Assembly (NCBI RefSeq): GCF_000378605.1
Contig: NZ_KB905155.1
Location: forward strand, 186,001-250,000
Length of the DNA stretch: 64,000 nucleotides
From: Thioalkalivibrio sp. ALJ21
GTDB taxonomy: Bacteria > Pseudomonadota > Gammaproteobacteria > Ectothiorhodospirales > Ectothiorhodospiraceae
Direction: 5' to 3'
Positions 2,818-8,193 of the stretch are shown here, one piece after another. The notes under the pieces were generated by a model. That model ran no database searches. It worked only from the letters and a program-made list of their open reading frames with translations, and was not told the origin of the DNA. Within the stretch, counting starts at the first letter, position 1; the number at the start of each line of letters is the position of its first letter. A program made the translations under genes and the position numbers.

Positions 2818-5800
2818 ATGTCCTTCTGGAAACGCAGCGTGGTTTTGCTGATGGTTGTGCTGTGGAGCGCGCCCGCCTGGGCGGATCCCAAGATTGTCGG
2901 CATCGTCTCCGAGCGCTCGGCCCCAGAGGTGGCCGCCGGTGCGCATCGATTCCTGGAGGCCGTGCCGGATGCCGAGGTGGTGCTGCGCACGCCTGAGCAG
3001 CTAGCGGACAAGTCGGACTCGTCAGTCCAGGCGCTGTGGCGCGATGCCGACGCGGTGCTCGTGGCCGCGGTGTTCGGGGACCAGGCTGGGCGCCTCGAAC
3101 GTCTGCTGCGCGAAGAGCCACCGGCCGAGTCAGCGCCGATCCTCGCGATCAACAGTGAACGGCGCCTGACCGCACTGTCCCGCATCGATGGCCAGGTGGT
3201 GCTGGAGGAACTGGACGAGGAGGCCCGGACCGAACTGACCGAGAACCCTGAAGCGGGCGAGGATCCGCGCGAGCATCTGTCCCGGCAGCAGGAGCGCTTC
3301 TCAAACCAGGCCGACTGGCTGACCGGACGTGCGTTCTATCAGGGCCGCACACCGGAGAACATGGAGGGCCTGATGCGCTGGCTGGCCGCTCGGGGCGGGC
3401 ACTCGATCGAGGTGCCGGAACCGGATCCGCGCGAGACCATCCGCTATTACCGGGATGGTCAGTCGGTCGCCGATCCGGAGGATCTTGGCCTGGAAGCCAA
3501 GCCGGCCGTGGCCGTGCTGGACCTGGATACCGGTGACCGTCCCGGTGACCGCGAGCTGCTGGATGCGACCTGCGAGGCGCTTGAGGCCCAGGACATCCAG
3601 TGCTTCGCGGTACTCGCGCGCTGGGGTGGGGCCAGTCGCGAGGCGGTCGAGAACCTCGCGGCATCGGCGGCACCCGCCGAACTGAGCGGGATCGTCAGCC
3701 TGCAGGACTTCGTTGTGGGCGGCGGTGGCAATCGCGAGGCGGTGGCCGAGGCCTTCGCCGAGCTGGACGTCCCGGTGGTCAAGGGGATTCGTCTGGCGGA
3801 CGTGAGCGAGACCGAGTGGCGGCTCTCGCACGAGGGCATCCCCTGGGACAAGGTCCACTATCACGTGGCCATGCCGGAATTGCAGGGCGCCAGTCAGCCG
3901 ATGGTGCTGGCGACGGCTGGCGAGCCCACGCACGACGAACGTACCGGCGTGCAACTGGCCCTGCCCGAACCGGTGGGCGAGCGGGTGGAGGCCCTGGCCG
4001 ACCGGATGCAGCGCTGGGACCGGCTGCGCCAGCTGGACAACGCAGACAAGCGGGTCGCGGTCGTGTACTACAACCATCCCCCCGGTCGCCAGAACATTGG
4101 CGCCGACAAGCTGGACGTCCCGGAATCGCTGCTGGAGATCCTGCAACGGCTGGAGGCCGCGGGGTACGACCTCGGGGACGAGGTGCCGGAGGATGCCGAG
4201 GCCCTGCTGGACATGATCCAGGACCGGGCGGTGAATCTGCCGGAACAGGCGGACGCGCTGGACGCGATTGCCGGCCGGGTCGCCTCGCTGGATCGCGATC
4301 AGTACCAGGCATATTTCGACGGCTTGCCCGCCGCGGTGCAGGCGGAGCTGGTCGACGGACCGATCGGCTACCTGCAGGCACGCCTGGAGGCGGCCCGGGA
4401 CGCGGACAAGCACGAACTCGCGGAAGCCGCGCTGGAAAGCGGTGTCGGTGATCTGCGGCATATGCTCGAGAGCTACCCGCACGACGCCCAGGAACGGGCG
4501 CTGGATCTGCTTGCCCAGTACGAGGCCGCCTGGGAGGCCACGCTGGCCGGTGAAGACGAACACGAAACCACCGAGCAGCTGCGCAAGGCCTTAGTGCGTA
4601 CGGGCATTCCGGGTCTGACCGGATGGGGCGAGCCACCGGGCGAGGCTATGACACGCAACGGCGAGATGCTCTTCCCGGGCATCGAGTTCGGCAACGTGTT
4701 CATCGGCCCGCAGCCGCCGCGCGGGTGGGAGGTCAGCGAGCGCTTGCTGCATGCGAACACGACCTTCCCGCCGACTCACCAGTACGCCGGTTTCTACCAC
4801 TGGATTCGCGAGCACTTCGAGGCGGATGCGTTGGTCTATGTCGGCCGCCATTCCACCCGCGAGTTCCTCCCGCGCCGCCGCGCGGGACTGGCGCCGGACG
4901 ACTACCCCGAGATCCTCGGCGGTGACCTGCCGATCATCTATCCCTACATCGTCGATGGCGTCGGCGAAGGCATCCAGGCCAAGCGCCGCTCGATGGGCGT
5001 GATGATCAGCCACCTGACGCCGCCGCTGGCGGCCACTGAGCTCTACGACAGCCTGCTGGAACTGCGCCAGCTGGTAGAGACCTACGAGGCCGCCGCCCAG
5101 CCCGATGCGGCCACCCGCTCGCGCGCCGCCCAGACCCTGCGCGAGCGCATCGACGAGCTGGGCCTGACCGAGACCATCGAACGCGAACTGGCGCGGGGGC
5201 ATCACCATCACGGCCACGACGACGGGGATGGGCACCACGATGACCACTCCGACGGGCATGCGCACGATGACGGCCATGACCACGACCATGGCCAAGACGA
5301 TGATCGTCGGCACGACCACGACCACGACCACGACCACGACCACGACCACGACCACGACCACGACCACGACCACGGGCACGGTGACACGCCCCTGGCGGAG
5401 ATGGACGAAGAACTGCTCGTGCACGAGATCGGCCACTACCTGACCGACATGCAGGAGGACCAGATGCCGCTGGGTCTGCATGTGTTCGGTCGCGACTGGT
5501 CGGACGAAGCCGTGGACACGATGCTCGAGTCGATGGCCGGGGATGGTGAGGCCGGTCACGACTGGGACGCCAGGCTGCAGGGTTCGCCCGCCAGTGAACG
5601 CGCCCGTCTGCTGGCCGCCCTGGAGGGTCGGTTCGTGCCACCGGGTCAGGGCAACGATCCGATCCGCACGCCGGATGTACTGCCCACCGGGACAAACTTC
5701 CATGCCCTGTCGGCGGACCTGGTGCCAACACGAATCGCCTGGGGTATCGGTCAGGAACTCGCCTCGGATGCGCGCGAGCACGGTGATCCGGAGGCGGATG

Positions 5801-7906: not shown

Positions 7907-8193
7907 GGGTTCCGCACTACCGCGCCAGCCGCTTTGATGCTCCCGACGAAGAACCGATGGGGCCATTGGCCAACCTGGCCGACATCATGCTGGTTTTCGC
8001 CGTCGGCCTGATGGTGGTGATGGCCGCCTCGGGGAGCGGCCTTGAACCGGCCAGTGGCGGCGCCGAGATCGAACCAGGGCGCGAGATCCCGGACCCGCCC
8101 GAGGGTGCCGGCGAGGCTGGCTCGGGTTTCGAATCGATGGGGCAGGTCTACCGTGACCCGGAGACTGGACGCATGATCCTGATCGGCGAGTAG
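7903..8193 (+). CDS. DUF2149 family single-pass membrane protein
   Basis: 96 residues. The family-like N-terminal block DEEPMGPLANLADIMLVFAV leads into one transmembrane helix (LVFAVGLMVVMAASGSG). A Pro/Gly/Glu-rich linker follows, then the closing motif GQVYRDPETGRMILIGE, typical of DUF2149 (recollection). The topology of short cytoplasmic N-terminus, one helix and periplasmic tail matches ExbD/TolR-like stator partners. The ATGA overlap with the ExbB-like gene implies translational coupling. The function of DUF2149 is not established. Inference: it is the ExbD-equivalent that links proton flow to the membrane-anchored CobN-like protein. Confidence 0.78.
   Translation: MRVPHYRASRFDAPDEEPMGPLANLADIMLVFAVGLMVVMAASGSGLEPASGGAEIEPGREIPDPPEGAGEAGSGFESMGQVYRDPETGRMILIGE

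Follow-up and report, generated by a model that had tools for sequence, protein, structure and literature searches.

An exported CobN-type protein encoded with an ExbB-like channel and a DUF2149 protein in Thioalkalivibrio: a candidate proton-driven cobaltochelatase of the periplasm

In a window of 64,000 nucleotides from Thioalkalivibrio sp. ALJ21 (contig NZ_KB905155.1 of assembly GCF_000378605.1, positions 186,001 to 250,000 of the forward strand), we analyzed three adjacent genes that encode (i) an exported chelatase subunit of the CobN type, of the variety called BtuS, with 1502 residues (2818-7326; PF02514, 809 bits, E 1e-242); (ii) a proton-channel subunit of the ExbB/TolQ/MotA type (7463-7906; PF01618, E 9e-10, and alignment); and (iii) a single-pass DUF2149 protein with a putative counterpart of the transmembrane aspartate of ExbD and TolR (7903-8193; PF09919, E 4e-9), the second and third frames sharing the ATGA at 7903-7906. 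This trio lies on the + strand, as do the other features of its operon, within a co-directional run that begins with a BtuB-like TonB-dependent corrinoid receptor (321-2135; PF00593/PF07715; TIGR01779 at 569 bits, the cut-off being 600) and a PduO-type corrinoid adenosyltransferase (2139-2693; TIGR00636, 196 bits), and continues after the trio with a CobA/BtuR corrinoid adenosyltransferase (8244-8858; TIGR00708, 224 bits) and a CbiA/CobB cobyrinate (or hydrogenobyrinate) a,c-diamide synthase (8855-10171; NF002204, 409 bits). A cobalamin riboswitch aptamer stands ahead of all of these; its 5' part is cut at the window start (1-176; RF00174, 56 bits), and the complete copy in the genome (G000:C1:185928-186176) scores 88 bits with the same model.

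The CobN-like frame starts with ATG, an alternative in-frame GTG lying 39 nucleotides upstream, and its first 22 residues (2818-2883) form a classical predicted signal peptide, MSFWKRSVVLLMVVLWSAPAWA, followed by Asp-Pro, with an AxA-type cleavage site judged by eye. Near the other end, hydropathy predicts a C-terminal transmembrane helix (residues 1480-1498; 7255-7311) followed by RRR, and signal peptide, helix and arginines together would therefore place the large CobN body in the periplasm. An earlier note on this DNA, made from the sequence alone, had described the signal peptide and membrane anchor, the overlap of four nucleotides between the ExbB-type and DUF2149 genes, and the riboswitch and TonB receptor ahead of the CobN gene; inspection, hydropathy and the profile matches confirm all three.

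Exported CobN homologues have precedents. HmuS of the Bacteroidota, encoded in an operon with the ExbB-like HmuU and the DUF2149 protein HmuV, is described as a heme de-chelatase (PMC12583661), and the accessible parts of the literature annotate HmuV as DUF2149 (PMC10434189) and already liken it to ExbD (PMC10100974). BtuS, as quoted in the part of PMC6460266 available, is a third CobN type proposed by Rodionov in 2003. The window protein resembles HmuS (PDB 9d26) in being an exported, membrane-anchored class I chelatase homologue, accompanied by ExbB-like and DUF2149 genes and a TonB-dependent receptor. Furthermore, His678 (4849-4851) aligns with the superfamily-wide His538 in the HFGTHG of HmuS and is conserved in every one of the 17 proteins aligned. 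The N-terminal part, where HmuS has its head-domain heme ligands Met79 and His254, aligns only weakly. However, HmuS comes with hmu genes and iron control, whereas the genes around the window protein are a B12 riboswitch, BtuB, PduO, CobA and CbiA, with no HmuY or HmuT in the operon, and its substrate is most likely a corrinoid. The LSLDHxxEFMGG motif that contains His1209 of HmuS is also absent: alignment to 9d26 and to the CobN structures 9uk9 and 7c6o places Asp1229 (6502-6504; LLDNDDGFDFQGG) at this position, where both CobN structures have aspartate as well. This aspartate is invariant in 11 of 11 aligned proteins of the B12 type defined below, none of which was seen to carry a Met-rich insertion, and it may suggest, but only suggest, an active site like that of CobN rather than HmuS. 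We thus rejected membership of the HmuS family on operon, motif and Met-rich insertion.

We likewise rejected an ordinary biosynthetic CobN. Like the subunits of CobNST and CobN-ChlID, the window protein has the PF02514 class I chelatase body and the Asp-rich motif of 9uk9 and 7c6o, and its relatives occur in cob operons of the CobG type. Unlike them, it carries a signal peptide, is accompanied by ExbB and DUF2149 instead of ChlI/ChlD (CobS/CobT were not searched separately), has no CobW beside it in the loci for de novo synthesis, and misses the NCBIfam CobN equivalog cut-offs, e.g., with 568 of 1619, 547 of 1248 and 508 of 822 bits. What it does match is BtuS as quoted in PMC6460266, an exported, membrane-anchored CobN homologue tied to corrinoid salvage. 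BtuS1 and BtuS2 of B. fragilis are likewise related to CobN, predicted to be periplasmic and membrane anchored, and proposed to act in salvage rather than synthesis; they differ in having been tested for heme iron, and the link to CobG and an ABC-2 exporter described below is absent from the accessible parts of the BtuS accounts.

Residues 795-855 of the window protein (61 residues; 5200-5382) form an insert rich in His and Asp and devoid of Met, a possible metal-binding tract that possibly holds cobalt. Inserts with at least 14 His per some 60 residues occur in 15 of the 81 loci described below (Thioalkalivibrio, an Alcanivorax metagenome-assembled genome, Halospina, Vreelandella and Aquisalimonas), with 8-9 His in L083 and L120. 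We therefore rejected the insert as a general feature; being confined to part of the family, it does not belong to the core mechanism.

The threonines of the second and third transmembrane segments have a known functional role from work on ExbB. In the ExbB-family proteins encoded with exported CobNs, the former does not vary among the 19 sequences aligned, and those of the B12 type also have a Thr-Thr pair in the third segment. The helix of DUF2149 has an Asn and an Asp that are invariant in 20 of 20 sequences, in the register of the ExbD/TolR aspartate. Profile comparison lent little support to equating DUF2149 with ExbD: hhalign aligned Asp to Asp at 22% probability, a weak profile match, and the DUF2149 model matched a TolR with a score under its cut-off. 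The pair resembles ExbBD and TolQR in its ExbB-family channel and perhaps in its single-pass partner with a transmembrane Asp, and differs from them in the short periplasmic part of DUF2149, in the weak match to ExbD/TolR profiles, and in its presumed client, CobN instead of TonB or TolA.

We then surveyed 369 genomes of the class with profile searches. DUF2149 matched in 21 genomes, of which 20 are true; the sub-cut-off match in G294 was judged by eye to be a TolR beside a TolQ-like gene. All 20 carry a CobN-family gene, compared with 41 of the 369 overall (Fisher 5e-22, uncorrected for relatedness), which excludes a chance association and bears out the co-occurrence that the earlier note mentioned for other prokaryotes. 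By neighborhood, these genomes comprise 12 of B12 type, including the window genome, and eight of heme type; the CobN proteins of the former match the window protein with more than 800 bits, those of the latter with about 320-410 bits where the gene is full-length. In 10 of the 12 B12-type genomes, RF00174 was detected ahead of the CobN gene or its operon; G256 reaches 30.1 bits against a cut-off of 31.5, and G143 has none. In the eight heme-type genomes it was near none of the genes, the upstream side of G104 being unassembled.

Consistent with the statement in the earlier note that no AAA+ partner is in the locus, none of the 20 genomes with an exported CobN has a ChlI/ChlD partner above 48.2 bits, CobS/CobT not having been searched as such, and the best match in the window genome reaches 37 bits. 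Conversely, 20 of the 21 CobN genomes without DUF2149 score 277-807 bits with this model, the exception, G195, being 58% complete. In the 19 of these 21 genomes whose CobNs were inspected (all except G191 and G195), no C-terminal helix was found (the end is cut off in G295) and no signal-peptide start was seen by eye; an N-terminal hydrophobic stretch in G272, in G028 and in one of the two CobNs of G322 is read as a buried strand. A PF01078 search of 23 genomes agrees: ComM aside, the controls G106 and G322 alone gave an individual match of more than 30 bits. With adjacent pieces added, matches to generic AAA+ proteins came to 31-38 bits in G089, G121, G104 and G236, versus 57 bits in both controls.

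A tree of 59 sequences, including 29 of 80 fetched loci, placed B12-type, heme-type and ordinary CobNs on one branch each, the split between exported and ordinary proteins having a support of 97 in the Shimodaira-Hasegawa-like approximate likelihood ratio test, with a warning of long branches. Because the tree, subject to that warning, joins the B12-type with the heme-type proteins, the trio could be a heme de-chelatase placed under B12 control. However, the riboswitch separates the two types (10 of 12 genomes versus none of eight), and B12 genes surround the trio in many loci, so that we regard this explanation as very improbable.

Relatives of the window protein were collected from 81 loci, consisting of the best 80 of 293 relatives and one Marinobacter plasmid; 73 of them are complete, two having been reassigned by hand (L109, with a helix under the threshold but visible by eye, and L117, with ExbB within a longer frame). 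The other eight have a CobN frame of less than 1300 residues or less than 2 kb of downstream sequence. Among these, L095, L114 and L133 are complete for C-terminal helix, ExbB and DUF2149; in L060, the first two are present before the contig ends; in L087, ExbB and DUF2149 adjoin an early-stopping CobN frame; L076 has the helix, with no ExbB or DUF2149 match in its remaining 1.2 kb; L092 has the helix and a weak ExbB match, the contig ending 178 bases on; and L070, from Marinobacter, lacks motor genes and helix. A hydrophobic N-terminal segment is found in 67 of the 73 complete relatives. Helix, ExbB and DUF2149 are all present in 64 of the 73, further confirming the predicted co-occurrence, and all absent in the other nine, which are all Marinobacter and, forming a single clade, represent one event. 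In this event, helix and both motor genes went together, whereas all nine loci still have BtuB.

The Marinobacter homologues (L055, L067, L069-L073, L077, L090 and L108) have an N-terminal hydrophobic segment and no C-terminal helix, ExbB or DUF2149. In several, a short tail with Cys stands in place of the helix, and one copy is plasmid-borne; M. mobilis has two loci, L072 and L090, in the same genome. A plasmid search matched the window CobN in 159 records, the best being a Marinobacter plasmid, and no archaeal organism was among the matches listed.

These loci bear on an explanation in which ExbB and DUF2149 serve TonB in energizing the outer-membrane receptor, BtuB here and HmuR in hmu, the CobN homologue being a separate matter. 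This is the published reading of HmuU and HmuV in the accessible parts of PMC10100974 and PMC12583661, and TonB genes (PF03544) do occur in two loci, L037 and L044. However, in the 63 of the 73 loci with enough upstream sequence for comparison, the window BtuB found no match in 24 of 54 motor-bearing loci, although more divergent receptors could escape this query, and all nine Marinobacter loci have BtuB without the motor, which tracks the CobN helix instead. In addition, the DUF2149 and CobN families both match in the genome of Methanosarcina acetivorans, a control organism lacking an outer membrane, whether or not the two genes adjoin there. The mismatch between BtuB and motor disfavors a receptor-serving role for pairs of the HmuU/HmuV type, and we consider it improbable.

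The riboswitch accompanies the trio even where the latter stands alone. In six of six stand-alone trios (Pseudomonas, Stutzerimonas, Marinobacterium, Methylophaga, Spongiibacter and Pseudocolwellia) it lies just upstream of, or overlaps, the start of the longest frame, and it was found upstream in five of six further loci, the sixth, L109, beginning at the receptor gene (11 of the 12 scanned loci overall). The stand-alone trios also bear on the idea that the CobN fold merely captures corrinoids in the periplasm, with the motor powering their release to BtuF or their remodeling and no metal chemistry involved. Salvage operons that combine the trio with BtuB and BtuFCD, the exported form without helix that motor-less Marinobacter retains, and the failure to find the chelatase-specific partner ChlI/ChlD would all fit such a role, but BtuF and BtuC genes are already present in the window genome, the active site is strongly conserved, and the stand-alone trios have no transport genes nearby. 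We therefore consider capture unlikely.

At ten loci, three of them in surveyed genomes (G089, G121 and G236) and seven from Thioalkalivibrio (L056, L057, L059, L061, L065, L074 and L112), the trio lies within an operon for building the corrin ring. The usual order, with variations, is CobN-ExbB-DUF2149-CobA-CbiA-SUMT-CbiD-(ABC-2)-CobG-CobH-CobI-CobJ, and NCBIfam models identified CobG, CbiD, SUMT, CobH, CobI, CobJ, CobL (CbiE-CbiT), CobM and CobK in G121. No CobN other than the exported one was found in G089, G121 or G236, and profile searches of these genomes gave no match to CbiX, CbiK or ChlI/ChlD; by the enzymes searched, the exported protein is therefore the only cobaltochelatase candidate for their late-insertion pathway. 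An ABC-2 permease gene is present in all ten operons (381-544 bits to the G121 query; PF01061 in G121, NF011648 in G121 and L056). A family check of the adjacent ABC ATPase covered L056, and weaker ABC matches were seen in L040, L043, L065, L074 and L112. In contrast, the permease is absent from the ring operons of genomes with other CobNs, seven regions in all (L050, L051, L136, L140, L141, L143 and L144, of which L136 and L140 are partial).

CobW is a cytosolic cobalt chaperone. A motif search found its gene adjoining cobN in four of the control regions, among them those of the three ordinary-CobN genomes counted as having CobG (L141, L142 and L144), and in none of 13 stretches with the exported trio; PF02492 confirms CobW in L139 and L141. 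Neither ring genes nor permease occur within the stretches examined of the window locus and its sister loci L058, L079 and L082.

The CobG model TIGR02435 was rejected as a clean marker. It matched in 234 of the 369 genomes, ten of them above its cut-off, and seven of these ten (G314, G209, G085, G171, G279 (C23), G070 and G295) are NirA-family proteins, with 650-873 bits against a cut-off of 523. These NirA proteins (L150-L156) exceed the curated cut-off of TIGR02435 by about 85-140 bits, so that precorrin-3B synthases called on this model alone can be false. Above-cut-off CobG proteins that are not NirA occur only in G089, G121 and G236 among the 369; G365, G272 and G279 (C67) were counted as CobG despite a sub-cut-off match since it lies in a cob cluster.

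Two further observations concern gene order around the trio. In the cob operon of G121 (L043, 8309-9232), a 308-residue protein without a Pfam or NCBIfam match is encoded between CobA and DUF2149. In L042, ExbB and DUF2149 are separated by a gene resembling CbiE and TP-methylases (9117-9788), although the genome has only three PF00590 matches; L042 and L083 (Methylohalomonas lacus) have identical CobN proteins.

Taken together, we propose, at about an even chance, that the three proteins form a class I cobaltochelatase that acts outside the cytoplasm and is driven by proton motive force. Gene content, co-occurrence, a sequence compatible with this topology and the riboswitch are observed, whereas activity, direction, substrate and export step are inferred. 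The CobN body would lie in the periplasm, coupled through its C-terminal helix to a complex of ExbB and DUF2149, a small motor like that of ExbB and ExbD, which would use proton motive force for the mechanical work that an ATP-fuelled AAA+ ring, CobS/CobT or ChlI/ChlD, performs in the cytoplasm; cobalt would thereby be inserted into metal-free corrin acids, and the B12 riboswitch would turn the trio on when B12 is scarce. A more tentative proposal concerns late cobalt insertion in relatives with the CobG route: corrin made in the cytosol may be delivered cobalt-free to the periplasm by the ABC-2 exporter of the same operon, metalated there by CobN with ExbB-DUF2149, and returned in its cobalt form to the cytoplasm by BtuFCD. 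In the window organism, metal-free or incomplete corrinoids would instead enter through BtuB, be metalated, and pass through BtuFCD, to be finished by CobA/PduO, CbiA, CobQ, CbiB and CobU/T/S.

The trio might act in the opposite direction, as a de-chelatase that, like HmuS, pulls cobalt or a wrong metal out of corrinoids or other metal tetrapyrroles. HmuS, the exported homologue of known activity, is after all described as a heme de-chelatase (PMC12583661), and the superfamily histidine is kept. On the other hand, a B12 riboswitch implies expression at B12 scarcity, when destroying corrinoids makes little sense, His1209 of HmuS is replaced by Asp, as in two CobN structures, and none of the other chelatases searched was found in the three genomes with CobG. 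This direction of catalysis thus appears unlikely to us.

Several points weigh against the proposed cobaltochelatase. HmuS, the only exported relative with a solved structure, removes metal. The B12 operon of Marinobacter keeps an exported CobN without a motor, so that proton power is not always needed. In Zoogloea (L135), the B12-type trio precedes a corrin operon with a gene that by eye resembles CbiX, and cobalt insertion there need not depend on the trio; both cases argue against a universal role. The aspartate at the position of HmuS His1209 is also found in four of six heme-type gammaproteobacterial homologues, which makes Asp1229 a weak marker. The ten exporter-bearing operons come from three families only, seven of them from one genus, and so represent few independent events, and the seven Thioalkalivibrio loci were viewed as stretches of genomes that might hold a second CobN elsewhere. 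Just three of the 12 B12-type genomes show every ring methylase, and the others would depend on a hypothetical supply of metal-free corrinoids. Proton motive force in place of ATP, as the earlier note had suggested, is retained as the best explanation, qualified by the motor-less Marinobacter and with catalysis in the periplasm as a putative step.

That note called the mechanism undescribed; the arrangement, however, has been described, with HmuS and HmuU/HmuV (PMC12583661) and BtuS (quoted in PMC6460266) as precedents. In addition, CbiK-P of Desulfovibrio vulgaris is reported as a cobaltochelatase in the periplasm (PMC4063343), and a putative periplasmic cobalt chelatase of Methylobacterium receives a passing mention (PMC2773004), in the accessible parts of these papers. 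Unlike the window protein, CbiK-P is a member of the CbiK family (class II), acts in early insertion, and is not known to use a motor. The parts of the proposal thus have precedents (HmuS/HmuU/HmuV, BtuS and CbiK-P), but its B12 branch looks new: in the openly accessible literature, we noticed no paper that connects de novo aerobic B12 synthesis, an ABC-2 exporter or a substitute for the AAA+ motor with an exported CobN.

If these proposals are correct, a class I chelatase has had its AAA+ engine replaced by one run on proton motive force, a swap that would set the energy source apart from the chemistry, and in some bacteria the B12 pathway leaves and re-enters the cell, its core being finished outside the cytoplasm. 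This would explain how CobG-pathway bacteria without a recognized cobaltochelatase complete B12, would give HmuU and HmuV a role other than powering a receptor, and would suggest traffic of cobalt-free corrins between cells.

The host of the window is probably a salvager of incomplete corrinoids that has only the late B12 pathway. Its genome (2.96 Mb, 99.99% complete) contains two PF00590 genes, which by length and strength of match look like siroheme synthase and RsmI; as no corrin-ring methylase was seen beyond these two, the host presumably makes no corrin ring. A second riboswitch locus encodes BluB, CbiB, CobD, CobQ, CobU, CobT, CobS, BtuF and BtuC and, together with the CbiA of the window, indicates that the pathway is kept from cobyrinate amidation onward. 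The window CobN is the single PF02514 match found in this genome, and in the best segment it is 96% identical to proteins of Thioalkalivibrio thiocyanoxidans and Thioalkalivibrio sp. ALJ3.

On the 3' side of CbiA, the window has a gene similar to MauG and di-heme peroxidases and a DUF4399 gene (10313-11829), at the position where Thioalkalivibrio relatives have SUMT-CbiD-ABC-2-CobG; this content is consistent with loss of the ring-building block. The Zoogloea locus L135 carries two CobN-ExbB-DUF2149 sets about 7 kb apart, one of heme type (53-3132) and one of B12 type (9734-15073). Finally, the gap between the window CobN and ExbB genes contains a long, near-perfect inverted repeat with about 30 paired bases (7346-7416; z-score of the gap fold -6.6), whose 13-nucleotide arm motif has no other exact copy in the window, and which is possibly a transcript stabilizer, an attenuator or a mobile palindrome.

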